A stretch of 29,422 nt of DNA from a virus, in IMG/VR virus record IMGVR_UViG_3300009161_000165, positions 1 through 29,422 of that record. One strand, 5' to 3'. Within the stretch, counting starts at the first letter, position 1. The number at the start of each line of letters is the position of its first letter. A model generated the notes under the pieces. The model was not told the origin of the DNA, ran no database searches, and worked only from the letters and a program-made list of their open reading frames with translations. Below are positions 2,637-24,701 of this stretch, one piece after another. The translations under genes were made by a program, and so were the position numbers.

Positions 2637-5600
2637 TTATAATCCACGCAAGAACCTTGCGGCCTGCGTATCAGTGTCTTGTAATGCTACCCCATCACTG
2701 GCTGTGCCATCCCCCAGTTGATACCATGTGGTAGAACATTCTCTTACCAATATAGTAACTTCTACTCCCGGGGGAGGTGCATGTAACTCTGGGTAGGTAC
2801 TTTGCGTTTTAAATTCGATGCTAACAGGATCAAAGTTTGACAAAGTCCAACGATATTGTCCTTCTGCAATTGCCACAGTAGTATCACTATAAGCATACTG
2901 TCTTGTTCCGCCCACGTAAACTTCGATTGCCCCAATTTCAACAGTGCTATCTTCAAAATTTGCAACGTCGATACTGGGTGCATAAAAAGTAGTAGTGCTA
3001 CCATCACCAGTGCTGGCGTCGCTTGTGATATAATTCTGAAACTCTTCGGGCAACAAATTACCACGTCCTATATCATACACATCAGCACCACTGGTATGAT
3101 TGGCTGCTGCCGTTCCAGCTGTGCCGCGAATAAGTCCCGAAATAGTATTAAAGGCCACATCTCTATAACGATACATAATTCGCTCACCATCTATTGTAAT
3201 CACACCAAAAATACCCGCTGGCAAATCTGGATTGCTAAGTGCCCGAGAATTATCAACATAAGCAATATCATCTAGATCGCCAAGATCTTGGGACAGTGCA
3301 GTTGTAGTAGCAGGAGTAATCCTATAGGTTGCTTGAATATTACGCATGTCTTGGAATATACGGAATGCTATTGCATTAGGAACCACACTGCTGGTAAATT
3401 CTGTAACAACCACAGTGTCTATGGTCCTAATAGGTCCGCTGGCCAATATCAAGTAGTCTCCTGCTGATGTAGTATCAGTGGCTCCTTGATATTCAATTGT
3501 GAAATCTTGACCTTCAAATAATCTATAACCATTTAATGTTACCCAAACTCTGCTGGCCAATACTCCAATACGTTCTAGATAAAAATTATTTTTATAAATT
3601 GCAGTTCCAACTGAGTAATCATATGACCCCGGAGCATCGGTTGTTGCACCTGCATCAAATACGGTACTATCATATGGTTCAGCAATGGTTAATCCTTCTA
3701 CAACTGGCCCAGCAAACAATAGCGTTAACGGAAATTGTTGTGATGTATCGTTCCAGGTGACTGTTTCAATTATGTCATTTAAGTTAACTAATATCTTTAG
3801 TTGCAATTGATTTTGTGTAATAACGTACTCAGCTTGAGTGTTTACGCTAATTAAAATTCTTGCTCCGCTAGGTGGAGGAGTGTTAAAAATAACCTGGCGG
3901 CCCGGAGTATTACTACCAGTCCAATTTGTAACAATGTATGTTCCAGAATATGGACCATAACTTTGCGGTTGTAATATGTTGTCTACCCAGACTGTAATAT
4001 CTGTGGGAGCATTGATGAGATTTTGATCGTATCCACTACGCTGTGGCAACCCAAAACTCACGCTTGAGTTATCGCCAAACCATTCAATTCCTGCAGGTGG
4101 AGTTAATCGAATACCGTTGCGAGTAACCACTGCATTAGCCGGATTAGATCCAGGAGCACCATTTGTTAGAACAATGTATCCAGTGTTTATGATTTCCGCA
4201 GTAATCACAGTATATTGTGACTGTGCAGTGCTCCATCCATAATCAGTTGTGGCCTGTCCGGTTCCCGAACCAATGCCGGTGGCAGTAAATATTGTTCCTA
4301 TGTTGTTGTTGGCAGCACCAATGGACACAAAATTGGTGGTGCCCACAATACTAATTGTATATTGTCTACCAATAACAAAATATCCAGCATCGATTGTGCA
4401 TAACCCAAATGCCACTAATGCTATTCCGTCGGTTGCACCATAAGTGGCACCAAACTCCACAAGACTTTGTGTAGTTGGCACAAATTCTAGCCAGTAACTA
4501 GCATTGGTTATAAGAATTCCTGGTATCGTATCCTGTAGTGCCCGATAATAACTACCACCAGTATTGACCACAGTCAGCGTTGTATAACTATCAGCAATAT
4601 TCCAAGCAACACTAGAAATATACGGAGTCCAGGTAGCACCACTGGCTACAGCACCGTTGACAAAAATTGCTAAACTTATTATTTCTGAAGAGTTTACAGG
4701 AATAATAACCGAACCGTCAACATCTGCACCTATGTAATTTCCGCGGAACAATTGACTGCCTCCGCCCAATTCATACACACTGATATCAACTGAATTGCCA
4801 TCAGCCACAGTGGGCAATAATGTTATGGTTTGATTGACCCAGTCAACAACGTAGTCAACGTCTCGTGCCAAATCTAATCCTGTGGTAATATTGCTAACTA
4901 ATATTTCTACTGGATGTGGTAACACATCGGCCCAACTAAATGTATCAGTTATTGCTGAATCATATGTGTAGCGTATATTAGAAACTGCAAATCCGTGCCC
5001 ATCTCTATTCCAATCAGCTCCAGGTCGAGTATAGATTCGCATGTCTAATGTGTCAAACTCTGCACCGTTAACTAACTCTTGTGGAGCATGTCCTTCATAG
5101 ATTCCAATAAATTCACCGCCATCTACATTGATGTCAGTTGGTAATGTACCTAATGTAGTATCAGTAAACTCACTTGTGTATTCAGCATCAATTGTCAATG
5201 CATTACCCAAGAAATAATTTCCATATACTTGCACTCCAGGATAAGCAATGCCATCGATTAAGAGTGGTAAATCAAGTCCAGGCTCATTAACGCCAGGAAC
5301 ATAATATCCCATGGTACGATCAACGCCAGTTAAATCCATAGCTGGTACTATAGTCCAGTCTTCAAGATTAAATGTTGGACCAACCACTGCGGTGGAATCT
5401 TGGCTACTGGCTTGGTACACACGATCTTCATACCGCACTAGAGTACCATCCTGATACGTGCCGTTTGCACTCCAATCTGATACGTCTGAGAAATATTGGA
5501 AACGATCAAACTTCATGGTAGTCTTGATACTACGCACAAGTCCGGCATACATGTTTGTACTCAAGTTATAATTCATGACCGCATAAGCGGTTGCCATACG

Positions 5601-8600: not shown

Positions 8601-11600
8601 TACAAAACGTTCAACCACGCCACCTTTGAAAATTTGAACACTACTTTGTGGCTCACCTACATATAAACTACAGTTATTAGTACAGATGTCTACAGATTGT
8701 CCAAAGTTACAAAACTCTGCCACTGTATTTTGACTTACTGTTTGTACCTGCTGGAATTGGTTGGTTTCAATTTCAATAATGTCACCAATTTGCAAGTTGG
8801 TTGTTATTGTCACGGCACTACCTACAATTTTAAATGTATTTGCACCACCTATCACGCTGTCAGTTTCGTTGATTAAAAATTGATTGTTAATGGTCACGCT
8901 TATTGGAGCGGTTGGAGCACCGCCTAACACAGTGATAACAGCAGACGAAGCATCAGTAGTGTTAATAAATCTTTGTACGTTACGATCAAAAACATACACA
9001 TTACCTGCTTCGACCTCACCGTCAACTGTGCGGTATGGTGTTCCAATTATAACTTGTCTACCATCAGTAGTACAAGAGATTGCATCTCCAAATTGGTCTC
9101 CAGCACTGAGTCCGCCTGATACACTTGATGTATCAATGGTATCTACATATTCAAAATAACTTTGTGCGTTTACAACCACAACATCACTAGGTGCTCTTGC
9201 TGTGATAAAAGTCACTGTGGTACCAGCAAATGTGTAATCAATATTTGGCCGCCATAATGCATCATTTACAGTAATGCTAAATGAATATATGTTTGTGGCT
9301 GTGAAAATTCCCACAGCATTACCAGTTGCGTCTATTCCATTGGCCAGATTAAATGTAGCAGATGTGGCAGGGATTTGAAATGCATAATATCTAGAAATAT
9401 CTATCAGCACTCCGTCGGCAGGAGCTGAGACAAAATTTACAGTACTAAAAGAGCCGCTAACAGTATAATTAACACCAACTGTTTGTAATTGCCCGTCCAG
9501 TGTCACTTTAAGTTGGCTTGAGTTGTTGATTTGTATGGTGTCATTGATGGTGTAAACGCTAGTGACACCATTTCCTCTAACTCGTATAAATTGATTTTGC
9601 CAATCAACCCGACCATAAGCGTGTACACTATTCAATCCAGGTGCACCAATATACATCCAACGTTCGTCAAGACTCATGGCCACACTATAACCAAACTCAC
9701 CAGCACCAGTTAGTAGTGTTCCGTATCCAGCAGGTTGTGTCAACAACTGCCATTGTGCAAACGGTACTACCCCGGGTTGTCCTCGAGCAGGATCACGATA
9801 TATAACACTGGCATATCCATTGTTGGCTTGGCTGCCAGACCCTAGACTTTTGCTTGCACCGGCCACTGCCCAGTTTTGATCGCCAAAATCTATAGCATTA
9901 CCATAACCGCGTACACCAGTAACATCTAGTGTGAGTACCGCGTCTTCACTGGATAGTGGGCTTATGGGAGTGTATTGATCACTGTAGTTTTTAACATACA
10001 AATACAATCCGCCTTTTTCAACGCCTGCACCAAATCCATATTTGGGACTGCCGACTAAGGCCGCTGTTCGATTTCTTGCTTGTGATACACTGGCACCATA
10101 TTGTTCGCCGGCATCTAACAATGCTGGATAAAGAGAAATAACATCCGAAAATACTGTGTTCTTTTGCAATACTTCCCACAAGCCACTGCCGTTGTTGTCT
10201 ACCCAAACTCTTGCACCGGGCAAAATATCATTGGCATATGGTAATGTAAGTACATCGCTTGCCTGTGCAACACGCATGGTTTGCAATGTAAATCCTAGGC
10301 CAGTACCGTTTGCGACTGATCTATTGCCACTAAACGCAAATGCAATGTTTACTGTGGTTAAATTTAATACTGATAATACTTGATATACACCGTTGACTTC
10401 AATATCAAAGAATTTAATAATTAACTTGTCGCCAGCAACCAGGCCATGATTACCGCTAAAGATCACACGGCTGGTGCCGTTTAAATTATCACATACGTGT
10501 TGTATCTGTCCAGGTACTGCTTGAGCACGATAAATGTTCCAATCATAATCATTGATCTTGGCCACCCATATACTGGTACCAACTTGAATTGCATCTATGT
10601 TGGCACTTAAACTGGCTGTGCTATTGATATCAAACACTGTGATATCAACATCATCAAGACTTACATATCCTGCTGAAGGCAAGCCAGTATCAGTAGGTAA
10701 TTCTGTCGTGGTTGGTAAAATATCAGGACTTGTGAGTTTATAACTCTGTCTCCAAACATCACTTAGTAGTATTTGTTGATCTGCTGAGCTCGGTTGTTGC
10801 GGCAATACCACTTGGACCAGGCTAGGATTGGCATCTAACAATGCACGATTTAAACGAAGTTCAAAGAAACTGCGATTGGCATTGGCACCATACACACTTC
10901 GCTGTACTGCCCAGTTTTCATATATGCTATAATCGGCTGCTTCTTTGCCAAGGTTGGCCGATTTAAATAATTCTGCCGCAAGGATAGTGCCCTTGGTATC
11001 AAGGAACTGTCGATATATATTAACTTGACTAACGTCGTCAAGGTTTAACGCGGCCAAGTATTGTCTAGGCTTGTATCCAATCAATCCGTATGCCAATAGA
11101 TCGTTGTCAAGTTCGATGTTGGCAGTATTGATATTGTAACTGTTGGCCAACTGATTGGCTTTGTTGGCAAGATTGGGCAACAACCCAAGTTCCATTTGTG
11201 TATAGTCGCTTTGTACCCAATCATTGAAATCAAACTTTTCAGTTGGCTGAACTATTTTTAGAGCAGACCAATACACATTCTTGTATTTGACAATCTGTCC
11301 CTTGCTATAAGTGCGTAAACCTGTCCATTCTTCCACATTGTCTTGGTTTAAAATAAAACCTGGAGTGTCAAGTGTTCCATTCCAGTCAGCAGTGGTCACC
11401 GCCACAAGAGTTAATCGACTTTGTCTAGCACCTGTGGTGGGATCATAAATTAAATCGCCAAACACACTGCGATTACTTAACACAATCATGTGTTCAAAAT
11501 TTGTAAATTTCAAATCAATAAAACTAATTGTCTGAGTGCTCAATGGCTGTATAACAAATGTATTGTCTATACGAACAATATTGAGAGTGCGAGTTGGCAA

Positions 11601-14600
11601 CTCTCTTGAATTCTGATCCAACAATAAATTTTCGCTTGTTTCGGTCACAATGCTATCGACCACTGCACCTGCTCGTGTGACTGTTAATTTGGCGGCCAAT
11701 GGATTTAAATTGATGATTGCATCTGTATTCCAACCCTGCTGGCTCCAGTATAAAAATTCATCAACCATTCTTGACCAATCCAAGACATAGTTATTTTCTG
11801 AGATATTGTCAAAAGTAAGTCCTTGATTTTCTAGCAATTTGCCATAACTCAACAAGAAATCACTAACTGCGGTTTCGTTGCTGAAAATAAATCCATAAGG
11901 TACTTGAACCACATTATTACTATAGAAAGTTGGAACTCTAACGGTGATACCGCCGGAGCTGTATTCTTGCAATCTACCAACTGCTTGACTTTGTAATATA
12001 TTAAAATATGGTTGCGTAGTTCCGTATCCAAACACTGCATATCCGCCAGACACTTTTTGTATTGCTATTGAACTATAGACAATTCGATCAAATGGTTGAT
12101 TTTTATACAAAACAATATTGTAACTCTCGTCAGGAATCATCAATGTGTTGTTGGTACTATTGGGACTGGATTTTTCAGTGTATAATTTAATATATTGCTT
12201 GTCCGAATAACTGGCCATGCGATAACACAATCTCACGTCAAGATTGTCAAGATCGGCGGTAAGGGCTTGGGTGCTATTGATTCCAGACTGACGATTAAAA
12301 TCTACTATCCAATCAATATAGCTGGCTTTGCTAACACCATCGCCATAAATTTCAAGTTGATTAGCATTTAATCTGTAACGACCGTTGTACAAATACTGAT
12401 TGTAATCTGTATCAAACTTGTATAAATCTCGATCAGCAAACAATGCAAAGAATTCTGCTGGGCGAGTAACTGCCAGCACATGCATGACCGAGAATGGATA
12501 TGCTGAACTATTCCACCATGATGATTCTACCGGTCCGCCATCACCTATGGCCCAACTTTTGTTAAATTGTGCGGCACCGTTATATTGATTGAATGCAACC
12601 CCAACTACGCTGTTAAATGGACTTAATAATTCGCCCTCGGTCCCTGTGGGAATAACTGTGGTTAAATCTGGTCTAGCATATTCTGGTTTATAGTATGGCA
12701 CAACAGGATCTGCCACATAGCCTGCGGCCAAGTCATCCCACAATACCAGGTTGTCTTGTGTGTATGGTGCTGGACCATATCTATTTTCCCACCACGTGGG
12801 TTCAATTGCAAAGCCCAACATCTCCCAAGGAGTGTAACTGGGTTGCTGTGTATCGTAGTAGTATCTATAGATTCCACGCCAGGCACCCAGCAAGTTTTGT
12901 TTATCTAGTTTGCTTTGTGAATTGCTGTAGTTCCAGGTAAACTCATTGGTGGCCGTGTAAGTTTGTTGACTGTAATCCAGTTTGTTCCAACCGCAATAGC
13001 TCAAAAAGTCCTGGGCAAATATTGTATTAATTTCTTCAAACGTGTATCCGGTGGTACGAAACTGTCCTGGCAACACATTTTCAATTGTTAGTGGCACTGG
13101 ATTACCATCAAGTTTTAAATTGCTGTAAATTCTAGTTTCAAATTCCAACAATACTTGATCTCGTATGTCTCCAAACAACGGAGTTATGCTACCATCATGT
13201 CCTTGCGTGAAGTTTTCTACACCATTGCTGGTTGTTCTTGGAACCACAGCCGGTTGCCATGCAGGGTATAGTCCCAACTTGGTTGGAGTGTTGGGTACAA
13301 AATTACCATAAGTGGCATTGTATTCATTTATAGTTACAACATCTCCCAGTGCCAATGTTATGAGTATTGTTAATCGTGGGCCGTTGATGGCAACTTCATA
13401 ATCAAGACCACGTGTTAAAATTTCATCATTTAGATACACACACATGCCAAGGTAGTTGGCTGACTCGTAGTTGTATACTTGTACTGTGTCAAATGTGGGT
13501 TGTGTGGTATATCCCACTGTGTAAGAATTTGTAGCGTATGGCACACTGGCCGGGATCATGTCACTCCAGTAAAATGGTTGCGTGTCAAGTTTTCCCAGGG
13601 TGATATCGGCTATGGCAGTGTTAAGAATTTCGGCTGTTGTTTTAAACGCAATGTTTTGTTGTGTTAAAACTGCATCTAACATTTGTGCTTTAAATTTAAT
13701 GTATTCACGACCGTTAAATTGCAAACTGGCAAAAATATTGTAAGCTGGACTACGCATGAAATAGCCGGCTAGAGTCAATGGCGAACTTTGTTGTAGTATT
13801 ACCAGGCCATAAGGAACAATATCACCAAGATCTCGAGTGTTATTAGCACCGTTAATTTTACCAGTTACTGTCAACAAATTTTGGCAAATACTTTCGTAAT
13901 GTGTGCGAATTGTGCCCAAAGTAAATGCAGAGCTATTAGCATTGAGAGGGTTACTGTTAAGATTATTTGGTACTTGATAAAATGCTACCTTGCTGGTTTG
14001 ATCGCTTAATGCCAACACTTCAATAATATCAGTTGGGACATAAGTGTTTGTCAATGTAATGACAGTGCTATCAGTGCCAATTACATAGGTATACAATGAT
14101 GGGTCAACAAATTGACTACCTACATATATTTTAATTACAGGAACTGCAATAGATGTTTGCGTCGTGGTAGCAATGTCAAGTTTAAGAGGAGAACCGTCGT
14201 ATGTAAATTTAAATTGCTGATAAATTTGTTGCTCAACTACAGCAGTTTGCCAACCAATTAATTTTGCATAAATGGTTCTATCAGCATATTCACGTGCCGC
14301 CCCTGAACTGATGTCGCTGGTAGTACTAACATTATCTATAGTGTATGTAAACGTATCAACATACAAGTTGTTGTCAAACACAATATCACCAACGTTGTTG
14401 ATGTTTAAATATTGTAACGGGAATTGCAAAACTGGATCAAGTATGGTGGTATCTCCCACAGCATAACTGAATAATTTTGATCCTGCAAAGTCTGAAGATT
14501 GATATTTTACTTTGTTTCCAAAACTTACACCATCAACATCGTAGATATTAAAAAGTGGTGCTTGTTGGATTGCAGTTTTTTGTTGTGCTTCTATCCAATC

Positions 14601-17270
14601 AGTACCATCATACCAATAGGTAAGGCCGGCACTGGTATTGCCATTGAGGCAAACTGTGGATTGATCAAGCAATACTATTCCGTCAGGTGCTTGGGTCAAT
14701 GTAATAATTGGTTCGTCAACTGTGGCTGTTCCTGAACCAGATCCCGTAGTGGCCGCAATAAAACCGTCGCCAACTGCGTAAGTTATTCCAGAAGTTCCAG
14801 CAGCCGCATTCCAGTCAGTTGATCCAAGTGTTAAAATATTATAGTGTACGCCTATCAAAAAGTCGCCAGCGTTGGTATTAGGTGATGTATCAGGCGTAAC
14901 AAAACTAACAACATAAATTTTATTTTTTACATCAGTATCTTCATCTGCGGCAAAAATTACTCGTGTGCCTTCTACAAATGTATATCCATCTGTGGAATAA
15001 CTAGCACTACCTTCAACATTGCTAAATGCATCTGTTTGTGTAAAATCAATAATGTCCACAGGTGCTTTGCCGTCTGTGCCCATGTCCCATAATCGTAATC
15101 CAGATCTAAATTGTATAATAGGACGTTTGGCTCGATAGTTATTGTCAAGCACCGCGGTGGTATTGTTATATTCAGCTGTTGCATTAATTACATCAATGTG
15201 AAACCAGCGGTTACTGCGACTCCATGCATTTAGATCTTTACTGGCACGACTGATTGTGAGATAGTCCGGTTGTGTTGGCTCAACTACAACAGTTGTGGTA
15301 TCAGCATCTACAGCATAAGTTTCGTAAACATCAAGACTACTAGTTGGCAACAATTCAATTGCTGTTCCCACGCCGCTTACATAGTATTCTCTATTGGCCA
15401 CAGCATTGGCTGTCATTGATCCTGTTGCAGTTGATAATGCAACAGGTGTTGCTCCGTACTGAATACTGCTTACTGTGAATTTTACATTGTTAGCTGAAAT
15501 TGATCTCACATAATAAGTTTGTCCTGCCACCAATCCGCCAAGTGTGGGGGCAACAAATACAATTTCTTGACCCACATACAAAGATGTATCAGTGTTGTCA
15601 TATGTGATATAATTTGTGCCGTATTCGGTACCGGTACACGCAATACTAGTGGTGCCTGATCCGTAAGCGGCAGGCTCAACATTTCCTGTAAATCTTACTT
15701 TGAGGCCGTTAGTAAATGCAACTCCATTGGGAGATGTGTAGGTTTTTTTACCTAGAATTTGGTCAATATAAATTATGCCAGTTTGATCAGCATCAACTAA
15801 TCTAATGCGACCCACTAGGTCTGGATTTTGACTATCTTGATAATACAGAGTATCTTGTACTGCTGTTAATAATGGGATCTGTTGAAAGAGGTCAACTGGA
15901 TCTTTGTACCATTGTGTATTACTGTATACTGTGCCATACGATATTGTAAATTTTTCTAGAGGATTGATAATCCCGATATCAATCAATTGAAGGTACACCA
16001 CATCATCAACAGTGACGTAAGTGATTTGGTATTTGTTAACCAGGGCAGGATTATTGATAAAAATCAACGTTCTGGTATTGAGATTGGTAGTATCATCAAT
16101 ACCGTCGTATTCAATCAAGAATTCAACCAATGGTTGTCCGTTGATTTGATCGTAATCTAGTTCAGTAACTAAATCAATTGTGCCAATGTCAGTAAGATTA
16201 TAATAAAATGCTTGTGCATCAGTATAAGGCACATTAAATGTTATTGTACCAAGATCGGTGCCATCATTGACCACACCATACACATCTCTACTGCTGATGT
16301 TGGGAGAGTAGGGCAATGTTCCTGACACGCCCGGTTCTGATTGTATCCAAAATTCAGGTCCGTTGCCGGCTGTGGCATTTACAATATTCAACACACCTTG
16401 CATGTTGGATTGGTCTTGACTAGCGTAATAAAGTGTGTCTGGTGCATCTTGTGGCACAACAAATGTTACCAACCCAGTGGCAGATCCGTTGCGTGTTACG
16501 CCAGAATTATAACTATCGCCCACACCTGTGGTGGCTGCAGTTTTTATCCAGAATGGAAATGCTCCAGTTAATGTTAGATTAAATTGATAAGTGTTGCCAC
16601 GAATCAGACTAAGTGCAGGATTGTTTTGACTGTTGATTACATAGGCTTGAGTTCTGTTGTTGGTAACTCTGTATGTTATGGTTTCTTTGGGATTTTGGGC
16701 TATTTGAAAAGTGTACGTGCCGCCGCGAATTAATTCAATGACCGGATCTTCGCCATAAACTCCCGAAAAAGAATATGCATTTTCGGCCCGAGTCACTACA
16801 AAATTTTCCGACACTGGCGATACCACTGCCTCTACGTCAACTACTTCAGGACCTGCTGGTAACCAAAAATATTGGCCAAAATTTACAAATGCATCAAAAT
16901 CAACAAAAGGATCCCATGTGTAATACTCACTTGAGTATAGTCTATCTGGCCTGTCTCCATTGCCACCTTGAAATGCCACAGCATCATTCATGCCCGGATA
17001 GGTAATAGCGTTCTGTATCTTGTTGGTATTTTCAGGAACAAGACTTACTACTCCGGGCTCAAGTTGATAGTTGGCTCGTGTGGCCGTGGGTTCAATTACA
17101 TATTTGTCGTTGGGATTGACACCAGGGCCCACTGTGCGGCCAATAAATCCTTGTGATTTTTTAAAACTAGGCTCTTGTATCAGCTGATCTAGTGTGGCTG
17201 CAAGAAACTGTTTGTTGGCATCAGTCTGAAATATTTCAGGAAGAAAATCTACACTGCGAACCTTGGCCAT
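2637..17270 (-). CDS. Giant 4877-aa baseplate/virion protein in the gp7 position
   Basis: A single uninterrupted frame. The start is fixed by TAATG overlap with the gp6 stop and GGAG 8 nt upstream. The N-terminus (MAKVRSVDFLPEIFQTDANK, then TLDQLIQEP and GPGVNPNDKYVIEP) is of a type I know from large structural proteins of marine myoviruses; order after gp6 points to the gp7 wedge slot. Visible parts: LIRGxTYxF and cupredoxin-like strands (about 175-296); a beta module (537-620); a GSGTGxA module (797-850) repeated at 4292-4344; seven FG-GAP-like blades (2405-3135); an INN...AAINTN insert between blades 5 and 6 (about 2896-2976); EVKPYHVSIREF (about 3727); a GxGYT module (3826-3887); IDGERIMYRYRDVAFN (about 4688). 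No protease, lysozyme or membrane segment seen. T4 gp7 is about 1030 aa, so most of this is extra. Role as wedge scaffold with exposed adhesive modules is inferred. Confidence 0.85.
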   Translation of the reverse strand: MAKVRSVDFLPEIFQTDANKQFLAATLDQLIQEPSFKKSQGFIGRTVGPGVNPNDKYVIEPTATRANYQLEPGVVSLVPENTNKIQNAITYPGMNDAVAFQGGNGDRPDRLYSSEYYTWDPFVDFDAFVNFGQYFWLPAGPEVVDVEAVVSPVSENFVVTRAENAYSFSGVYGEDPVIELIRGGTYTFQIAQNPKETITYRVTNNRTQAYVINSQNNPALSLIRGNTYQFNLTLTGAFPFWIKTAATTGVGDSYNSGVTRNGSATGLVTFVVPQDAPDTLYYASQDQSNMQGVLNIVNATAGNGPEFWIQSEPGVSGTLPYSPNISSRDVYGVVNDGTDLGTITFNVPYTDAQAFYYNLTDIGTIDLVTELDYDQINGQPLVEFLIEYDGIDDTTNLNTRTLIFINNPALVNKYQITYVTVDDVVYLQLIDIGIINPLEKFTISYGTVYSNTQWYKDPVDLFQQIPLLTAVQDTLYYQDSQNPDLVGRIRLVDADQTGIIYIDQILGKKTYTSPNGVAFTNGLKVRFTGNVEPAAYGSGTTSIACTGTEYGTNYITYDNTDTSLYVGQEIVFVAPTLGGLVAGQTYYVRSISANNVKFTVSSIQYGATPVALSTATGSMTANAVANREYYVSGVGTAIELLPTSSLDVYETYAVDADTTTVVVEPTQPDYLTISRASKDLNAWSRSNRWFHIDVINATAEYNNTTAVLDNNYRAKRPIIQFRSGLRLWDMGTDGKAPVDIIDFTQTDAFSNVEGSASYSTDGYTFVEGTRVIFAADEDTDVKNKIYVVSFVTPDTSPNTNAGDFLIGVHYNILTLGSTDWNAAAGTSGITYAVGDGFIAATTGSGSGTATVDEPIITLTQAPDGIVLLDQSTVCLNGNTSAGLTYWYDGTDWIEAQQKTAIQQAPLFNIYDVDGVSFGNKVKYQSSDFAGSKLFSYAVGDTTILDPVLQFPLQYLNINNVGDIVFDNNLYVDTFTYTIDNVSTTSDISSGAAREYADRTIYAKLIGWQTAVVEQQIYQQFKFTYDGSPLKLDIATTTQTSIAVPVIKIYVGSQFVDPSLYTYVIGTDSTVITLTNTYVPTDIIEVLALSDQTSKVAFYQVPNNLNSNPLNANSSAFTLGTIRTHYESICQNLLTVTGKINGANNTRDLGDIVPYGLVILQQSSPLTLAGYFMRSPAYNIFASLQFNGREYIKFKAQMLDAVLTQQNIAFKTTAEILNTAIADITLGKLDTQPFYWSDMIPASVPYATNSYTVGYTTQPTFDTVQVYNYESANYLGMCVYLNDEILTRGLDYEVAINGPRLTILITLALGDVVTINEYNATYGNFVPNTPTKLGLYPAWQPAVVPRTTSNGVENFTQGHDGSITPLFGDIRDQVLLEFETRIYSNLKLDGNPVPLTIENVLPGQFRTTGYTFEEINTIFAQDFLSYCGWNKLDYSQQTYTATNEFTWNYSNSQSKLDKQNLLGAWRGIYRYYYDTQQPSYTPWEMLGFAIEPTWWENRYGPAPYTQDNLVLWDDLAAGYVADPVVPYYKPEYARPDLTTVIPTGTEGELLSPFNSVVGVAFNQYNGAAQFNKSWAIGDGGPVESSWWNSSAYPFSVMHVLAVTRPAEFFALFADRDLYKFDTDYNQYLYNGRYRLNANQLEIYGDGVSKASYIDWIVDFNRQSGINSTQALTADLDNLDVRLCYRMASYSDKQYIKLYTEKSSPNSTNNTLMIPDESYNIVLYKNQPFDRIVYSSIAIQKVSGGYAVFGYGTTQPYFNILQSQAVGRLQEYSSGGITVRVPTFYSNNVVQVPYGFIFSNETAVSDFLLSYGKLLENQGLTFDNISENNYVLDWSRMVDEFLYWSQQGWNTDAIINLNPLAAKLTVTRAGAVVDSIVTETSENLLLDQNSRELPTRTLNIVRIDNTFVIQPLSTQTISFIDLKFTNFEHMIVLSNRSVFGDLIYDPTTGARQSRLTLVAVTTADWNGTLDTPGFILNQDNVEEWTGLRTYSKGQIVKYKNVYWSALKIVQPTEKFDFNDWVQSDYTQMELGLLPNLANKANQLANSYNINTANIELDNDLLAYGLIGYKPRQYLAALNLDDVSQVNIYRQFLDTKGTILAAELFKSANLGKEAADYSIYENWAVQRSVYGANANRSFFELRLNRALLDANPSLVQVVLPQQPSSADQQILLSDVWRQSYKLTSPDILPTTTELPTDTGLPSAGYVSLDDVDITVFDINSTASLSANIDAIQVGTSIWVAKINDYDWNIYRAQAVPGQIQHVCDNLNGTSRVIFSGNHGLVAGDKLIIKFFDIEVNGVYQVLSVLNLTTVNIAFAFSGNRSVANGTGLGFTLQTMRVAQASDVLTLPYANDILPGARVWVDNNGSGLWEVLQKNTVFSDVISLYPALLDAGEQYGASVSQARNRTAALVGSPKYGFGAGVEKGGLYLYVKNYSDQYTPISPLSSEDAVLTLDVTGVRGYGNAIDFGDQNWAVAGASKSLGSGSQANNGYASVIYRDPARGQPGVVPFAQWQLLTQPAGYGTLLTGAGEFGYSVAMSLDERWMYIGAPGLNSVHAYGRVDWQNQFIRVRGNGVTSVYTINDTIQINNSSQLKVTLDGQLQTVGVNYTVSGSFSTVNFVSAPADGVLIDISRYYAFQIPATSATFNLANGIDATGNAVGIFTATNIYSFSITVNDALWRPNIDYTFAGTTVTFITARAPSDVVVVNAQSYFEYVDTIDTSSVSGGLSAGDQFGDAISCTTDGRQVIIGTPYRTVDGEVEAGNVYVFDRNVQRFINTTDASSAVITVLGGAPTAPISVTINNQFLINETDSVIGGANTFKIVGSAVTITTNLQIGDIIEIETNQFQQVQTVSQNTVAEFCNFGQSVDICTNNCSLYVGEPQSSVQIFKGGVVERFVNQSRVYGTISSTIANPALTNGDTIRINNIDVAVPNAPDQNIAGLAAAINTNVQNVLATVTTDGYLVLAIQNPDAAPQFNKLQVAPGTVGTTFDDLGFDTFAWTQTIESPYPTEYAGFGSSLSIDDSAINLVVGAPKGTIYLETEFDDGTTIFDVGSTVFFSIIIQSGAIYTYDYLPSSTLVITNPGKFVFGQQINNSDVAPYDGFGTSVNYTSGVVMAGAPKNDYGDSSADFGSVFVFENTTGTLAWTVTNIQQPTVDIRLLNSVFLYDRITGARTEFLDFINPLQGKILGAAKQNIDYIGAVDPASYNIGPVNVRGTTWFGERVGEVWWDISTVRFIDPNQDNITYASRRWAQIFPGSVIDVYQWVYSPVPPAQYNGEGTPYNSFSYTVNTRLTLDGTFATEYYFWVRDITVTATKLGKTLPVSTIASYITNPRASGIPYMAPINASTIALYNSGDYIEASDTIINIEFDQQLTDADVHVEYELIPQDRPDGFLSDILYRKLQDSFCGVDTFGNQVPDPRLGPAERYGVQFRPRQSMFVDRFAALKNYLVRCNTVLSQYPVSENRSFNLLNSSQAEPMQTETVDGVTVTNWNLRVANLEILGFQTPFWSNPNGSIPLGYKYLVTTDSSQRGLWTIYTVETSDTQANTRVLILTQVQGYNTPDYWSYIDWYLPGYNSSTKVLAEVSTYSALATLTVPVGSSVKVTANAQGKFEIYLKTDLSWERVGLQDGTIEFSAELWDYALGRFGFDVEVFDAQYFDQEPVTETRKIIQAINEELFVNELAIERNRALVLVFNFVLSEFSAPEWLVKTSLIDVDHRIRELIPYQNYIRDNQEFVSDYIQEVKPYHVSIREFNLKYAGFDEFFGDTTDFDLPAYYNTSLDIPAYTSPILLPYDHGTASGASINNLSDLPATSTVWTTWPYNQWYSNYLLNLISIRIIDGGLGYTEAPLVIITGDAEVPAEAIATINAVTGVVTSVDITYAGSGYTTTPTITFDGGNGTNRMATAYAVMNYNLSTNMYAGLVRSIKTTMKFDRFQYFSDVSDWSANGTYQDGTLVRYEDRVYQASSQDSTAVVGPTFNLEDWTIVPAMDLTGVDRTMGYYVPGVNEPGLDLPLLIDGIAYPGVQVYGNYFLGNALTIDAEYTSEFTDTTLGTLPTDINVDGGEFIGIYEGHAPQELVNGAEFDTLDMRIYTRPGADWNRDGHGFAVSNIRYTYDSAITDTFSWADVLPHPVEILVSNITTGLDLARDVDYVVDWVNQTITLLPTVADGNSVDISVYELGGGSQLFRGNYIGADVDGSVIIPVNSSEIISLAIFVNGAVASGATWTPYISSVAWNIADSYTTLTVVNTGGSYYRALQDTIPGILITNASYWLEFVPTTQSLVEFGATYGATDGIALVAFGLCTIDAGYFVIGRQYTISIVGTTNFVSIGAANNNIGTIFTATGIGSGTGQATTDYGWSTAQSQYTVITAEIINTGYIVLTNGAPGSNPANAVVTRNGIRLTPPAGIEWFGDNSSVSFGLPQRSGYDQNLINAPTDITVWVDNILQPQSYGPYSGTYIVTNWTGSNTPGRQVIFNTPPPSGARILISVNTQAEYVITQNQLQLKILVNLNDIIETVTWNDTSQQFPLTLLFAGPVVEGLTIAEPYDSTVFDAGATTDAPGSYDYSVGTAIYKNNFYLERIGVLASRVWVTLNGYRLFEGQDFTIEYQGATDTTSAGDYLILASGPIRTIDTVVVTEFTSSVVPNAIAFRIFQDMRNIQATYRITPATTTALSQDLGDLDDIAYVDNSRALSNPDLPAGIFGVITIDGERIMYRYRDVAFNTISGLIRGTAGTAAANHTSGADVYDIGRGNLLPEEFQNYITSDASTGDGSTTTFYAPSIDVANFEDSTVEIGAIEVYVGGTRQYAYSDTTVAIAEGQYRWTLSNFDPVSIEFKTQSTYPELHAPPPGVEVTILVRECSTTWYQLGDGTASDGVALQDTDTQAARFLRGL
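4240..4395 (-). repeat. GSGTGxA module, distal copy in the giant protein
   Basis: Residues about 4292-4344 read AGYFVIGRQYTISIVGTTNF, then IGAANNNIGTIFTATGIGSG and TGQA. The same order of motifs (AGxFxIGxxYxI, GxTxx, GxxFxAxTGxGSGT) occurs at 14721-14880. I know this module from many marine phage structural proteins. Confidence 0.75.
7866..10058 (-). other. Seven FG-GAP-like blades: probable beta-propeller in the giant protein
   Basis: Seven segments fit the FG-GAP blade pattern (F/Y-G-x-x-[SAV]..., about 10 residues, then V/I-x-G-[AST]-P/S, then G-x-[VA]-x-V-[FY]). The key aromatic residues are F2413, Y2456, F2526, F2727, F2856, F3007 and F3095. Clear examples are EFGYSVAMSLDERWMYIGAP, QFGDAISCTTDGRQVIIGTP and GFGSSLSIDDSAINLVVGAP. 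Blades 3-4 and 5-6 are separated by longer inserts that look like independent beta domains. The first two blades are the most degenerate. FG-GAP repeats form seven-bladed propellers in integrin alpha chains; a binding role here is inference. Confidence 0.7.
14721..14880 (-). repeat. GSGTGxA module, proximal copy in the giant protein
   Basis: Residues about 797-850 read AGDFLIGVHYNILTLGSTDW, then AVGDGFIAATTGSGSGTATV. This is a diverged second copy of the module at 4240-4395, about 10.4 kb away in the same frame. Confidence 0.75.
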
Positions 17271-20200
17271 TAAATTACTCCACTACCGGGTGCAGTACGC
17301 AAGTTGGTACTGGTCAATGCTTCAATAACGTCAATGTTGTTGATTGTGGCACCGTTAACAAATATTTCATTGGGTGCTGAACGTATTTCGTACAAGTCAC
17401 CAAAGTATTTCTGACTGTTGAGTGGTACCAACACCACGGAACTTATGATTGTGCCCAGTTGACTATGCAAGTAGGCCGCAAGTTCTGAGAAATAAAATGT
17501 ATCGCCAAAATTCCACTTGTCAATACTAAAATATGTATTCATTGCGGCTACCACACTACTTTTGATTTCGCTGGTACTGGCAGTTGAATTGCTTGCACGT
17601 ATGACCTTTATTGTGGCACGAAGATTTTGTGCGGCTTTTTCTCCAAACAAAGGTTTGAACACAACAGAGTTTAAAACAATGTTGTCACTTATCATTTTAT
17701 AATTTTCTAATCCTTGATACGCAGTTGACAATTCATCAATGGTAGGAATATCTGGCTCAACAACTTTGCCGGTTGTGTCACGTATCCAGTTTTGATATGA
17801 TGTGTAATATGCCAGTGTTACCACATACAAATCAATAATGTTTGTGGTTCCCGGATCAATACGTGCAGTCAACGGTGCATTGTGTCTGTATTGGAAATAC
17901 AATGCCTGACGTCCTGTTCTAGCAATCCATTCGTCTGTGACATCAATTAATGTTCTAACACCAGTTACACTAACACTGAGTTGATAAAACGCACCCACTG
18001 TGTTATTAGTATTAACTTGACTATATGCATAAAACACCTGCCCCGGAGTCCAAGAATTTTTTACTAATTCAATCTCATCATATGTGCCGTAGTCACTGGT
18101 CACTAGATCTGGTTCAACCAACAAGTATCTTTGTAAGTTGTCAAAGTCCACAGTTTTTTGCAAGTAGATATATTTTTGTGTTGGGTTAGTGCTTGGAGCA
18201 ACAATTTCATTAAAGAAATCAGGGTTGTCAGGAACCCCGTCATTGTCACTGTCGCGATATCCTACCAGGACCTGGAAGTCATCAACATAGCCGTCGCTTT
18301 CTACTGGTTGACCAGTTATGGTCATGTAGATATCGCCGGGCAAATGGTCAGTTGAATCTGGTTGGGTATTCACCGCCAAACAATTGATGTAGTCCTTGAT
18401 CACAGTGCCTGTGCGGCTGTCGTAGATCGGGGAACCATCGTAGAAGAAAAAGCGTGTTTGCAACACTGATCCAAAGAAATAGGACAGTCCGCGGAATGTA
18501 ATTGTGTAATTTTGATTCTGCACTACAAATTGTATCAACCAACTGGCGTCTAAATTTGTACCTGATGTGTTGCCAGCGTATGTTTGACTCCACGTGGCAT
18601 CAGCGTTCAAATTAGTGCTGGTAATTACATACCATGAGTATGGTGTTCCTGTTATGTCACCGTTGTTATCGTACCCTAATCCAAAGTTACGATTTAATAA
18701 AATTTGTTCAGTTATAGATAGTTCTACACTTTGTGGTAAATCGGTCACAAACAAAGGAATAATTGTGTTGATCAATGCTCCTGTGGGAACAAAATTATTC
18801 AGTGCAACCGGTCCAGCACCCGAAGACAAGTTACCAAGACCATTGTTGTATCCAGTGCCTTGAATGCTCAATGGGCTGGCCCAAATTTCTAATTTCTGAT
18901 CTGCTGAGGTAGGTGTACCTTGTTGTAGTTTGTTGTTTTTGTCAAAGTAGTAACCAGTTGGTGGAACAAATTTTATCAAACTTCCTACCACAGCATACTT
19001 GAATTGTGTTGTGGTAGTTGACCCAACTGGTATTGGTGTTCCTGCGGCATTTTTAAAATAGCCTGTGGTTTCATTGGCCAACGTTGTGCTTTGATTCCAG
19101 GTTGTGTTGGGTAACCAAGTGACTGCTGTTGGCAATGTAGCGGATGTGACCCTGGGGAAATTTGCATAATAAAATTGCCGCATCAAAGTTTCTGCTATTT
19201 TTGGTTGTATTTGATTTGTAACCAAATCAGAAATTTCATTACGGTTAGTCCAGGCAAACAAAATTGTAGGTAATATATTTTCTTCCCACAATCCACCATC
19301 ACTACCAAATATGTTTGTGCTTGAATATTTGCCTGTGTTGTCTACTAGATCAAGATAACGACTGGTTCCAATTGACGCACGATTTAATGCTTTAGATTTT
19401 ACAATGCTATTGTATTGAGTGTATGGAAAAAGATTATAGTCTTCGCCATTGACCATGCGATTTTGTGTGTAGTATCTAGCAGGAGCACGTTGTTTGATAG
19501 CGTCAATGCTTTCACGTGCTTGGCTGTTTGACACAGGTCGAGTGATACCGCAAGTGAATGTCATTGTTTCAAGATTACCAGCACGACTAATGTAACTGAT
19601 AGGAATGGTCACGGCTTGCATTTCTTCTGGATTGATAATATATTGCAATCCATTACTGGCACGAACATACGCTCGGAATGTGCCTACAGGAATCTCTGAG
19701 AATACTCCATCACCAAACACCATGGTAATTTGATCGTTAGTTCTTGAAGTAACTGAATATATAGGTCGTGTATCTGTAGCAATTTGTTCGCCGCCTGCGG
19801 CATAAATGTTTTCAGCATATTGCCATTCGCGATTTATGTTTCCAACATTGTCTAGTTGAAACAGCCAACGGTCTTCATTGTTAACACCTTCGATATTGAT
19901 ATTGACTGTGCGATTGCTCACTCGTTCACCTAAGTTAAAATCTTGATTTTGTAATATACCTTGTTTGAACATGAAGAAATAACCAGTGTTGGATGACTGA
20001 AATCCTAAACTGTCATTACGAAATAAAATATTAAAAGGTTGATTGGGTCGTGGTGGTGGTTCGTACAAATAGTTTTGACCAACTGAGGTTGAAGTCATTG
20101 CCTCAAAAGGCATGCTCACCCCATCCACTGTGGCAGTATATGGTACCACGGGCAAATATCCTGGAACTAAATTAATTGCATATTCGTCTGTTCGTATACC

Positions 20201-20740
20201 AAGTATTGTTTGGCGGTTGCCCGGTCTGCCAACTTTTTGTGTGTCTACTAAACTGGCATTTATAATTGTAGTAAATTGTTCTTGCCAGTCTGGGTTTGTG
20301 GGGTCTGCCCAATCCACAGTAATGTTGCTAAGATTTACACCATTATAATCCACTAGATTTTCTGTTGTGGTAACTGAAAATACTTTGAGTAATCCTTGTG
20401 CGGCAATGTTGCGTTTGGCAGTATAACTTACCAAATTTGCCAAACGCACAACTGAATCTCTACGTTCAGCTGTGTCCATGTAATTTTCGCGAGTGTTTAA
20501 GTCTGTGCGGAAAGCCAGTGCTTGCCCCATAAATGCCATAACATCTAGTAAGGCAATGTATTCGCTTGATTCAATATAGTCGTTGAATGTTTCTGGATAA
20601 TACAAACGCAGATAATCAACAAAACTTTTACGTAGTGTTTCAAAATCATAACTTTGAAAATCAGCTTCGCGATAAGTTTGGTAGATTTGTTTCCAATCCT
20701 CTACACCAAATATCGCTGTTTGTCTTGTGGTTTTTGCCAT
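17270..20740 (-). CDS. gp6: Baseplate wedge protein gp6, enlarged
   Basis: A 1156-aa protein of the gp6 / baseplate-J family, which forms the ring of wedge dimers around the hub. Recognisable pieces: LRKSFVDYLRLYYPETFNDY and ALLDVMAFMGQALAFRTDLN near the N-terminus; FGDGVFSEIPVGTFRAYVRA (about 347); then DAIKQRAPARYYTQNRMVNG, EDYNLFPY and NRASIGTSRY (403-460), the wording I associate with T4-like gp6; and SIDKWNFGDTFYFSELAAYL in the C-terminal region (1034-1107). T4 gp6 is 660 aa; the extra length is mostly between about 525 and 1030 and holds an Asp-rich loop DSDNDGVPDNPD at 830-841. The start has AGAGG 10 nt upstream. The stop overlaps the giant gene start by one base. It follows gp25, as in T4-like operons. 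Confidence 0.92.
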   Translation of the reverse strand: MAKTTRQTAIFGVEDWKQIYQTYREADFQSYDFETLRKSFVDYLRLYYPETFNDYIESSEYIALLDVMAFMGQALAFRTDLNTRENYMDTAERRDSVVRLANLVSYTAKRNIAAQGLLKVFSVTTTENLVDYNGVNLSNITVDWADPTNPDWQEQFTTIINASLVDTQKVGRPGNRQTILGIRTDEYAINLVPGYLPVVPYTATVDGVSMPFEAMTSTSVGQNYLYEPPPRPNQPFNILFRNDSLGFQSSNTGYFFMFKQGILQNQDFNLGERVSNRTVNINIEGVNNEDRWLFQLDNVGNINREWQYAENIYAAGGEQIATDTRPIYSVTSRTNDQITMVFGDGVFSEIPVGTFRAYVRASNGLQYIINPEEMQAVTIPISYISRAGNLETMTFTCGITRPVSNSQARESIDAIKQRAPARYYTQNRMVNGEDYNLFPYTQYNSIVKSKALNRASIGTSRYLDLVDNTGKYSSTNIFGSDGGLWEENILPTILFAWTNRNEISDLVTNQIQPKIAETLMRQFYYANFPRVTSATLPTAVTWLPNTTWNQSTTLANETTGYFKNAAGTPIPVGSTTTTQFKYAVVGSLIKFVPPTGYYFDKNNKLQQGTPTSADQKLEIWASPLSIQGTGYNNGLGNLSSGAGPVALNNFVPTGALINTIIPLFVTDLPQSVELSITEQILLNRNFGLGYDNNGDITGTPYSWYVITSTNLNADATWSQTYAGNTSGTNLDASWLIQFVVQNQNYTITFRGLSYFFGSVLQTRFFFYDGSPIYDSRTGTVIKDYINCLAVNTQPDSTDHLPGDIYMTITGQPVESDGYVDDFQVLVGYRDSDNDGVPDNPDFFNEIVAPSTNPTQKYIYLQKTVDFDNLQRYLLVEPDLVTSDYGTYDEIELVKNSWTPGQVFYAYSQVNTNNTVGAFYQLSVSVTGVRTLIDVTDEWIARTGRQALYFQYRHNAPLTARIDPGTTNIIDLYVVTLAYYTSYQNWIRDTTGKVVEPDIPTIDELSTAYQGLENYKMISDNIVLNSVVFKPLFGEKAAQNLRATIKVIRASNSTASTSEIKSSVVAAMNTYFSIDKWNFGDTFYFSELAAYLHSQLGTIISSVVLVPLNSQKYFGDLYEIRSAPNEIFVNGATINNIDVIEALTSTNLRTAPGSGVI

Positions 20741-20761
20741 TTGTATTGAGCCTCTATGTTT

Positions 20762-20769
20762 TATTTATG
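20762..20769 (-). promoter_or_regulatory. T4-type late-promoter-like octamer upstream of gp6
   Basis: The minus strand reads CATAAATA, one base from the T4 late consensus TATAAATA, within the 48-nt gp25-gp6 gap, the widest gap in the window. It lies 21 nt before ATG 20740, leaving room for a start site and the AGAGG ribosome site. The decamer CCCATAAATA recurs before gp25. Confidence 0.4.
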
Positions 20770-20788
20770 GGTATCAAAAACCACTAAC

Positions 20789-21166
20789 TTATACATAAGA
20801 GGCATTACGCTGTTGAAGATCAAAGAAAATACTTAATCTTTCGGCATCGGTGCTGGGTACCACAGTCAATTCAACTTCAATTAATATACCATTTTCTTGG
20901 GGGTAACTTTGCACGTTGTTGATGTAAATCCTAGGATCACCGCCGGCTACTCTTTGTACTTCATTTACTATAGAAGTGTTCAGATCTTCAAGTTGTGCCT
21001 CAAACAAAAAATCCCACAATGCTGTGCCGTATGCAGGACGTCCAGGCAATTGCCCTTGACGTATGTTAAATGCATTAAGCAAATCACGTTTTACCAAAGC
21101 AAAATCCGTGAGTGTAAACTTTTTGTATTGATTTTGTGTGTTGAATCCAATGAATGTTTGTGCCAT
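20789..21166 (-). CDS. gp25: Baseplate wedge protein gp25
   Basis: A 125-aa protein of the GPW/gp25 family (T4 gp25 is 132 aa), the small wedge subunit that joins gp6 near the sheath start. Characteristic wording: FTLTDFALVKRDLLNAFNIR, GRPAYGTALWDFLFEAQ, NEVQRVAGGDPRIYINNV (the family's usual [E/D]PR...V position) and VELTVVP near the C-terminus. The family resembles lysozyme only by name; no catalytic residues are expected. It starts 17 nt after the stop of the 666-aa gene. No Shine-Dalgarno is visible in CCTCCCATAAATACCAT, so translational coupling or another initiation route is likely. Next gene gp6 follows after 48 nt. Confidence 0.92.
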   Translation of the reverse strand: MAQTFIGFNTQNQYKKFTLTDFALVKRDLLNAFNIRQGQLPGRPAYGTALWDFLFEAQLEDLNTSIVNEVQRVAGGDPRIYINNVQSYPQENGILIEVELTVVPSTDAERLSIFFDLQQRNASYV

Positions 21167-21170
21167 ATGG

Positions 21171-21178
21171 TATTTATG
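21171..21178 (-). promoter_or_regulatory. Second CATAAATA octamer, immediately before gp25
   Basis: The same CATAAATA (within CCCATAAATA) as before gp6, but only 4 nt from the gp25 ATG. A late transcript starting 6-8 nt downstream would be leaderless or start inside the gene. It may be a chance match. Confidence 0.2.
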
Positions 21179-21183
21179 GGAGG

Positions 21184-23184
21184 TTATTCACCTGCTCCGC
21201 GTCCTTCAATTTTTAAACTCAAGGCAGCCAATCTTTGTTTGATATTTTTGCTCTTGTCTAACAGTATTGATTTAGCGGCCCTGATGTTTACTATGTTGGT
21301 AAATTTTCCAGTGTCTTGTAATCCTTGCTGTTGTCCTGGAGATAATCGAGTATAAATTGATTCCAACGTGGCTTGTAGGGTTGGTCCATTTGAATTAAAC
21401 AAATTACGTGCTTCTTGAAATTCGTTGTTAATTGCCGACCAAGCATCAGATGTAATTGTTTGTTGATTTTCTAATGCCGTTAATTTGTTAGCAATAGCGG
21501 TAAATGCAATGTTTGTTGGATTAATATAATCAGATGCTAGAGTCTTGGCAGTATTCACATACAATTCAACATCGGCTGTGTTTTCAGTCACTTGTTTAGC
21601 TGTGTAATTGGGTGCTGGTACTTTATCGTCACCTATCACACGAGTAGTGGCAGCGTCTACGGTGGCTCTACCCACAGTATCTGAAGCTGGTTTAGGAACT
21701 TCTTGTTGTTTGAATGCCGTTGGTATTTTTGTGTTTACTAGATTGACAGCAAATGCACCATCTCTTACCGCTGTGGCAAACTCTGCTTGTACTGCACCAG
21801 TACCGTCTCCGGGTATGGGCAGTCCTTTGGCAAATGCTTCTGCACTGGGCAAATCTTTAGCGGCATTTAAACTCATGCCAGCAATACCTTGGCTTGATAA
21901 ATTTTGTACAGGTATGCCTACCGCACCCATGCCTGCTACACCTTTGGTCATCAAGTCTTGTTGTATCTGGCTTTGCTTGGATGCATTGGCCAACAAATCA
22001 CCGGCGTTTTTAACTCCGTCTTTTCCAGTCCATACAGCAGGACTGTTTATCACTGTACTAAATGTTGACAAGTCTGTGTTAAATTTAGCACGGGTTCCTG
22101 GTTTAACATATCCGGCAGATTCTAATTGACCAAGATTTAATCCAAATGCACCCAGGCCATTGGCATCGCTTAGATCGCCAAACCCTTGTCCGGTAAGATT
22201 TTTTGCCTGTGCCAACACCCCGTTGACTTCGGGTATGCTCATAGGACCAATAGGAGCCACAGCACCCACAGAATTAATACCGGACGCAATCTTTGAAAAG
22301 TCTGCCACATTAATAGGACTGGTGACTGGCAGTCCAGTAATAGTTTTGTTGATTGTTTGTATCGAAGTTACTGCAACTGATCCTTGTACAGCAGATGCCC
22401 CAACTAAAGCTAAACCAAGTTGACTGGATCCGACCACGCCGCCCAGGGCTCCTGACACCGAAGATACTGCGGGGCCAACAGCGGCAGTCAATCCTGGGGT
22501 AATACCAGCAAGTGATCCGCCTAATGCTCCGCCGGCTGAACCAAGGCCTGAAGCAACACTACCTACCAGTGCGCCAAGGCCAGCGGCACCGCCAGTAATG
22601 CCACCTTTGGCAAATGCTGAATCAACTGATGGAATTCTACCAGTTGACAGGTCCACACCTGATGCTGATAGACTTGATGAAAATCCACCTAGACTGTTTA
22701 TACTACCGTTTATTCCAGACTGTGCTTGTGCCACAATGGCTTGTGCTCCAGCTAGGCCATCTGCGGCTTGTGTCGACGCACTGAGTGTTTCGCCAGGTGT
22801 GAACCCTACTAAACCACCAGTGTCGGCTTGTTTCTTAAAAATTGCAAATGCTTGCTCTCGAGTGAGTCCTGGTGGACCTTTGATAGCAAATGTTTTTGCG
22901 GTGCCGTCGGGATTTGTGGGAGCGGCTCCTGTTGCTGGCGTTCCTGTTGCTCCTGTTGTGCCGATTGTTGTATCTTCGGGTGGTCTTGGAAAACCAATTT
23001 CAGTTAAACTAGGTAATCCACGACGTATGCGTTCAGCATTTGTTCTGTCCCATATAATATAATCATTACCGGTATAGTTGAGATCTTGATCACGTGTTTT
23101 AGAATAGAGTTTAGAGTCAAGACTGGTAACACTGCTACCGACACTTGATTTAAGTTGGTCAAGATTAAATGTAAATTCTGCCAT
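21184..23184 (-). CDS. 666-aa Gly/Ala-rich baseplate structural protein
   Basis: The N-terminus has NYTGNDYIIWDRTNAERIRR followed by GLPSLTEIGFPRPP (about 37-69), then a Thr/Pro/Gly linker, an extended Gly/Ala/Ser-rich stretch (about 130-270) and a segment with FGLNLGQLESAGYVKPGTRA and SPAVWTGKDGVKNAGDLLAN (about 345-400). A helical C-terminus (about 560-660) follows. The QLESAGYVKPGT...VWTGKDG segment is one I remember from C-terminal parts of gp5-like or neighbouring structural proteins of marine T4-like phages (memory, not searched). The ATG lies 181 nt inside the gp5-like frame and has only a weak CAGG about 9 nt upstream. The frame is open upstream of the ATG to about 23253, so a -1 frameshift product fused to gp5 is possible. 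Probably hub/needle-associated. Confidence 0.75.
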   Translation of the reverse strand: MAEFTFNLDQLKSSVGSSVTSLDSKLYSKTRDQDLNYTGNDYIIWDRTNAERIRRGLPSLTEIGFPRPPEDTTIGTTGATGTPATGAAPTNPDGTAKTFAIKGPPGLTREQAFAIFKKQADTGGLVGFTPGETLSASTQAADGLAGAQAIVAQAQSGINGSINSLGGFSSSLSASGVDLSTGRIPSVDSAFAKGGITGGAAGLGALVGSVASGLGSAGGALGGSLAGITPGLTAAVGPAVSSVSGALGGVVGSSQLGLALVGASAVQGSVAVTSIQTINKTITGLPVTSPINVADFSKIASGINSVGAVAPIGPMSIPEVNGVLAQAKNLTGQGFGDLSDANGLGAFGLNLGQLESAGYVKPGTRAKFNTDLSTFSTVINSPAVWTGKDGVKNAGDLLANASKQSQIQQDLMTKGVAGMGAVGIPVQNLSSQGIAGMSLNAAKDLPSAEAFAKGLPIPGDGTGAVQAEFATAVRDGAFAVNLVNTKIPTAFKQQEVPKPASDTVGRATVDAATTRVIGDDKVPAPNYTAKQVTENTADVELYVNTAKTLASDYINPTNIAFTAIANKLTALENQQTITSDAWSAINNEFQEARNLFNSNGPTLQATLESIYTRLSPGQQQGLQDTGKFTNIVNIRAAKSILLDKSKNIKQRLAALSLKIEGRGAGE

Positions 23185-24701
23185 GTTATTTTGCCTGTAT
23201 TTACGCCAGCTGGAACTGGTACTGCACCTGGTGGCGGACTGGGTTTGCCTTCTTCAAACTTGACTTCCACGTCAACACCTTTGTTATGATACGGATAAGG
23301 TTCATGCGTGGCTGCTCGACTCACAATACTTTCAATACCTTCAGGTTTTACAATCCAACCTTTGCTGGTGTCAAATTCTGTATCGTCTAACAATGTTTTA
23401 GTCAATGGTTGTGGGGTATTAACCGCTCCAGCAGCCGCACCATTAAGATCAATACCACCAGCTTCTAGCACTAGGGCAGAGCCTGCACCCCATGCCCCCG
23501 ACGAACTGTTCAATGTAAGTGTACCGTCTGCTTTGACTCCGATTGTGTTTTTGCTGTATAATGTAATATCTTCTTGAGCTTGTATACTTAAAAATGTGTC
23601 TGTTTCCAACTGCATGTCTTCTTTGCTTTTCATTTTTAAATAACGTCCAGCAAACATATTGATATCTCGATCAGCATGAAAGTTAATATCACCTTTAGTT
23701 CGCAAGTTTATAGAGTTTGTAGCATACACATCCACTGTGCCTTCTACTCCAAACTCCAACCAAGTTTGTCCATTGGCATGAATAATATAGAAAAAGTTTC
23801 CCGAATCACTCATGGTAATTTGATGACCTAAGCTGGTACGCAATCTTAATAATGCATTTCGACCTTCAAGATCACCGTCGTCCATCACAAGACTATGTCC
23901 ACCCACACGACCGATGACTTGAGCTTGTTTGGGAGTAATTTCGCCTGCATTTAGTTTTGCACGAATATCGTTGGGTTTCATACCACCTTGATAAATGGGC
24001 ATGCCAGGAGTGCTAACACCAAATACAGCACTAGGAGTTTCACGTTGACTCGAACTTTGTATAGTTCCACGTTCGATATCATTTATAACACCTTGTTGAA
24101 ATAACCCCTGTGCTAGATAACCGTGTACTGGTTTAGTTGAATCAAAGAATCGCGGATCGTTAAAAATTTCTAAATTATTAGTGTTAATTTCTGCCACAGG
24201 CAAGCGTGTGGCACCAGCAAAATATGTTTCTTGATTTTGATTTTGAAATTCTGCTTGTGCTGCCGGTACAGAAGCAATAGCAGGAACCATGCTACCTAGT
24301 CCTTCGTCAGGAACCACACCAATATAAAATCCTTGACTACGATCACCGTTGACAAAAACACACAGTACTGTTACTCCTACATCTGGTGGAGTGAACCACA
24401 TGCCATAAGAATTAGAATTTCCATCTGTCCAAGTTCCAACACCAGCACTACTAGGATTGGCAGGGGTTGACCCGTAAAAAGGAGGCATGTAACTCACTGT
24501 GGTCCAATTGGTATCATCATTTTCGCTGGCTTGACTACCTGCAGAAAATGCATCAATATACACTCTCAAACGACCAGCTCGTGTGGGATCCACGGTGCTT
24601 TTAACTATTCCGTAAAATGGTCCAAATTCAGCAGGCACCCCACCACGATCTAATTTATAATTACTTGGGCGACCTCGACTGCGTTGTACATTTTCTGTCA
24701 T
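23004..24701 (-). CDS. gp5: gp5-like baseplate hub / needle protein without lysozyme domain
   Basis: Residues about 25-130 form the gp5 / VgrG-type OB fold (FGPFYGIVKSTVDPTRAGRL, YIDAF, TPPDVGVTVLCVFVNGDRSQ, GFYIGVVP). Residues 270-327 hold HSLVMDDGDLEGRN, RTSLGHQITMSDSGNFFYI and NGQTWLEFG. Residues 328-400 are alternating strands (INLRTKGDINFHADRDINMF, QAQEDITLYS, KADGTLTLNS), typical of the trimeric needle beta-helix. The T4 lysozyme domain is missing, as in other marine relatives I recall. A Pro-rich stretch (GKPSPPPGAVPVPAG, about 483-497) precedes the last 60 codons, which overlap the 666-aa gene in another frame and look like non-functional read-out. The start is supported by AAAGGA 7 nt upstream, 10 nt after the preceding stop. 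Confidence 0.88.
   Translation of the reverse strand: MTENVQRSRGRPSNYKLDRGGVPAEFGPFYGIVKSTVDPTRAGRLRVYIDAFSAGSQASENDDTNWTTVSYMPPFYGSTPANPSSAGVGTWTDGNSNSYGMWFTPPDVGVTVLCVFVNGDRSQGFYIGVVPDEGLGSMVPAIASVPAAQAEFQNQNQETYFAGATRLPVAEINTNNLEIFNDPRFFDSTKPVHGYLAQGLFQQGVINDIERGTIQSSSQRETPSAVFGVSTPGMPIYQGGMKPNDIRAKLNAGEITPKQAQVIGRVGGHSLVMDDGDLEGRNALLRLRTSLGHQITMSDSGNFFYIIHANGQTWLEFGVEGTVDVYATNSINLRTKGDINFHADRDINMFAGRYLKMKSKEDMQLETDTFLSIQAQEDITLYSKNTIGVKADGTLTLNSSSGAWGAGSALVLEAGGIDLNGAAAGAVNTPQPLTKTLLDDTEFDTSKGWIVKPEGIESIVSRAATHEPYPYHNKGVDVEVKFEEGKPSPPPGAVPVPAGVNTGKITWQNLHLILTNLNQVSVAVLPVLTLNSILKHVIKISTIPVMIILYGTEQMLNAYVVDYLV

Follow-up and report, generated by a model that had tools for sequence, protein, structure and literature searches.

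An apparent overlap between a gp5-like baseplate hub gene and its downstream neighbour is most likely the product of a two-base deletion in a single viral contig

Introduction

In gp5 of bacteriophage T4, the lysozyme domain occupies the region before the beta-helix of a single polypeptide. The hub/tail lysozymes of the Pootjesviridae (Rhizobium phage RL2RES and Sinorhizobium phage phiM9) and of Ochrobactrum phage ORM_20, associated with phrog_27932, likewise contain a central domain within the hub polypeptide, before the beta-helix. In PA5oct-like jumbo phages (Arenbergviridae; PA5oct EST35_0133), a structural gene lies upstream of gp5, and genes for a gp25-like protein, a wedge protein and a giant protein lie downstream. 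PA5oct gp5 ends at 477 aa, and small reverse-strand genes come after it.

The DNA analysed here, referred to as the window, is a linear viral contig from IMG/VR, 29,422 bases long. Its neighbourhood is similar to that of the PA5oct-like phages, but where PA5oct has the small reverse-strand genes, the window has a gene for a 666-aa protein, here called P2, which in the record overlaps the gp5-like gene; PA5oct gp5 contains nothing that corresponds to P2. P2 is a separate gene, unlike the domain of RL2RES, phiM9 and ORM_20, although its residues 343-439 are homologous to that domain.

Results and discussion

The gp5-like gene and the overlap in the record

In the open reading frame (ORF) listing of the window, the gp5-like ORF runs from 24701 to 23004 on the minus strand (565 aa) and the P2 ORF from 23184 to 21184 on the same strand. 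They have 181 nt in common in different frames. With respect to gp5, P2 reads in the -1 frame, and going upstream from the P2 ATG this frame stays open as far as 23253 (position 6170 of the reverse complement). The original prediction had described all of this correctly for the record. It had also remarked that the gp5 tail lacks recognisable gp5 features, and indeed nothing of the gp5 family is present there. The features of the region, with our reading of them, are:

23202-24701, minus strand: part of the gp5-like baseplate hub/spike gene that is in frame with all relatives; its 500 codons reach Val500, in the Pro-rich end ...PVPAGV
between 23201 and 23202, minus strand: two-base gap with respect to L003, L004 and all other relatives, from pairwise alignments; placement ambiguous by a base or two
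23004-23201, minus strand: out-of-frame gp5 "tail", 65 residues and a stop; product of the deletion, not conserved, its frame closed by stops in most relatives
23186-23188, minus strand: gp5 stop codon (TAA) of L003 and 49 other relatives, one base ahead of the P2 ATG; out of the gp5 frame in the window
21184-23184, minus strand: P2, separate downstream gene, 666 aa, putatively baseplate-associated, with a core domain in lysozyme position (about residues 320-440); 66 IMG/VR loci, alignment A1, hhalign match to the central domain of Rhizobium phage hubs
20789-21166, minus strand: gp25-like baseplate wedge protein, next gene downstream of P2 (PF04965, 3.5e-06; phrog_43, 5.4e-09)

The gp5-like ORF matches phrog_13211 (baseplate hub subunit and tail lysozyme; E=1e-39), which places it in the hub/tail lysozyme family, and PA5oct gp5 (E=2e-52, 33% identity over 82% of the ORF). 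For the OB-fold domain and the C-terminal beta-helix of a T4-type gp5, the matches to PF04717 (OB domain; 20.0 bits against a cut-off of 23.8) and to PF10106 (20.9 bits against 30.7) are both sub-threshold, each at the expected place. Further along the minus strand, the window has a 4,877-aa ORF (2637-17270); in PA5oct a similarly giant gene lies downstream of the one for the baseplate wedge, the two being likened by size and position and not by sequence.

The junction in relatives

Searching IMG/VR with each protein returned 66 loci for P2 and 59 for gp5; the loci with both genes present were reduced to 56 distinct junctions. The gp5 and P2 pairs of these contigs (L003 to L120) are the same two genes in the same order as in the window, with L003 99.9% identical, but there the genes are separate and the 181-nt overlap is absent. 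In 50 of the 56 distinct relatives the gp5 stop lies one base before the P2 ATG (TAA-N-ATG), and in the other six, the more distant ones, the two genes meet in a four-base ATGA overlap; no overlap longer than ATGA, and no case of gp5 and P2 as one frame, was found among the 56. From gp5 to P2 the frame changes by +1 in 50 relatives and by -1 in six, while the gene boundary is constant. Relatives with complete gp5 starts encode 499-512 aa, compared with 565 aa in the window, and every one of the 56 gp5 proteins finishes with [GS]-[VI]-E-[IL] and a few further residues. In 49 of the relatives the P2 frame is interrupted by a stop 9-18 nt ahead of its ATG.

The original prediction is borne out in part. 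Its author had named relatives with two clearly separate genes as the outcome that speaks against it, and every one of the 56 has them. Three explanations had been offered, and an indel in the record is the one that fits the relatives, with two bases missing instead of one; a programmed -1 shift and a true long overlap do not fit.

A two-base deletion private to the record

The closest relative, L003 (IMGVR_UViG_3300010160_002149), is 99.89% identical to the window across its full 7,019 nt. The differences are six substitutions and one indel, two bases that are absent from the window between positions 23201 and 23202, 17 nt upstream of the P2 ATG and exactly at the frame break. L004, with 91% identity over a 702-nt junction alignment, is without the deletion, and all other relatives examined keep the two bases (none of the 56 shares the overlap). 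Three near-identical contigs, L003, L019 and L025, jointly span window positions 15187-24279, and the deletion is the only indel among them. A search of IMG/VR with the gp5 end sequence that flanks the deletion found two other records only, both without it, and no second record that carries it. The frame-breaking indel is therefore private to one record: a near-identical sequence lacks it, and the relatives all keep the normal boundary.

Because the two bases are missing, gp5 leaves its frame after Val500, misses the TAA at 23188-23186 and ends only at the following stop; it thereby loses its conserved C-terminus and gains 65 unrelated residues. The P2 frame appeared open to 23253 because the deletion destroys the in-frame stop that normally closes it upstream of the ATG; the ATG and the frame of P2 itself are intact.

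Judging from these comparisons, the 181-nt overlap is not a biological arrangement of the lineage, but the result of a two-base deletion in this record; apart from it, the two are ordinary neighbouring baseplate genes. In the lineage, a gp5 of about 505 aa is followed by a separate P2 gene across a TAA-C-ATG stop-start junction, with P2 presumably translated by termination-reinitiation (translational coupling). Loss of two bases just ahead of the gp5 end carries the gp5 frame beyond its own stop and lays a meaningless tail over P2, with the stop upstream of the P2 ATG gone. We assign a probability of about 0.94 to the reading that the lineage has two adjacent, separate genes and that the record lost two bases near the end of gp5, most likely through an error, otherwise as a rare allele. 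A false overlap, and with it a false frameshift candidate, would thereby be removed.

Three substitutions within 27 nt inside P2 (22569, 22573 and 22595, minus strand) are also private to the window; at these positions another base stands in L003, in L004 and in every other relative with aligned sequence. In another contig, L039 (1837-3779), the P2 ORF stops early, at 3303 (488 aa), yet homology to residue 666 runs on to 3779; this is probably another frame break in a P2 gene.

Coding constraint in the overlap

The first 60 codons of P2 were compared with those of ten informative relatives, each with 46-55 base differences from the window; L003, with no changes in the overlap, and L004, with only five, are uninformative here. 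The values for the P2 frame (pS 0.52-0.65, pN 0.16-0.21) indicate purifying selection. The gp5-tail frame, with pS of 0.19-0.28 and pN of 0.26-0.33, shows no purifying selection, and in the informative relatives it has a stop at codon 34 and often also at codon 42. The substitutions, in this analysis of both frames, which had been proposed along with the original prediction, respect only P2, contrary to what a true long overlap implies; two frames that are both open and both constrained were not found in the relatives.

Origin of the deletion and alternative explanations

Within the two-base reading, we consider a sequencing or assembly error in one contig the probable cause (compare Warwick-Dugdale et al.), since the deletion is confined to that contig and disrupts a structural gene at its conserved end; how the probability is divided between error and allele is a matter of judgement. 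Possible, but rather unlikely, is a genuine frameshift allele present in part of the phage population, in which the C-terminus of gp5 is altered and translation of P2 continues to start at the P2 ATG. Such an allele would probably be defective, and the genes are separate either way. The undamaged ATG and frame of P2 agree with it, and the further private substitutions with respect to L003 may mark the window as a distinct, divergent strain. It is opposed by the retention of the gp5 C-terminus in 56 of 56 relatives, by the lack of selection on the tail frame and by the failure to find a second deletion-bearing record in IMG/VR. We regard it as very improbable that the allele is real and also maintained, with gp5 acquiring a new C-terminal tail of 65 residues from sequence that overlaps the start of P2.

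Programmed -1 frameshifting that yields a gp5-P2 fusion of about 1170 aa is hardly credible, even though a P2-like domain does lie inside the hub polypeptide of RL2RES, phiM9 and ORM_20. The relatives contradict it. A conserved fusion would need a conserved direction of shift, the opposite of the mixed frame relations described above; 49 of the 56 have the P2 frame shut shortly ahead of the ATG, leaving no frame open through a shift site; and none of the 56 distinct junctions is fused. Moreover, the distant hubs place the domain before the beta-helix, and a gp5-P2 fusion would place it after. True overprinting by a real, selected gp5 tail has next to no probability: over 60 codons the tail frame meets no stop in the window, nor would it in L003 and L004 if entered, but gp5 of both stops before the P2 ATG, and in most other relatives the tail frame is interrupted and without purifying selection, so that both the junctions and the substitution pattern contradict it.

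P2 and the central domain of distant hub proteins

The P2 family is conserved in alignment A1. The full 666-aa protein gave no tblastn match in the named phages, and for the window's own P2 neither Pfam nor PHROGs gave anything at E 0.001; phrog_27932 is matched by 5 of 24 P2 members (best 8.7e-05). The core of P2, residues 343-439 around QLESAGYVKPGT and WTGKDG, corresponds to the central region of the RL2RES, phiM9 and ORM_20 hubs with an hhalign probability of 97% (E 1.3e-10), and HMM matches of the core to those hubs range from 1.8e-06 to 6.5e-05. An AlphaFold model of P2 is of low confidence (mean pLDDT 55.9, pTM 0.29). With this model, Foldseek found no significant match in the PDB; of its three best BFVD matches, two carry a gp5/hub annotation, which we use only as support. 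Sequence searches of the PDB returned chance or coiled-coil matches only, and P2 has no homology to the C-terminal half of Atu_ph07 gp5. The original prediction had placed the segment from QLESAGYVKPGT to WTGKDG in the gp5 polypeptide of relatives; this is right for distant phages (the Pootjesviridae and ORM_20 hubs, and those of BFVD) and wrong for this lineage. The gene beside gp5 here corresponds to a domain inside the hub of distant phages, which suggests that the module switches between forming part of gp5 and standing as a gene of its own.

The distant hubs keep an ESSxxY segment, the Glu of which we take, from lysozyme-like and lytic-transglycosylase motifs, to be the probable catalytic residue. 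Window positions 21865-22160, which encode the P2 core, are homologous to the Pootjesviridae hub domain, but lack this Glu; in the core alignment, none of the seven P2 members shown has a Glu counterpart. Because of this, P2 may be an inactive, lysozyme-like relative, now encoded by a separate gene and retained at the hub to serve in structure or binding, as far as its sequence can suggest. At the other end of the protein, only some relatives have the N-terminal module (about residues 12-88, YxGxDxIxWDxxNxERxRRGLxxL), while the rest of the protein is conserved.
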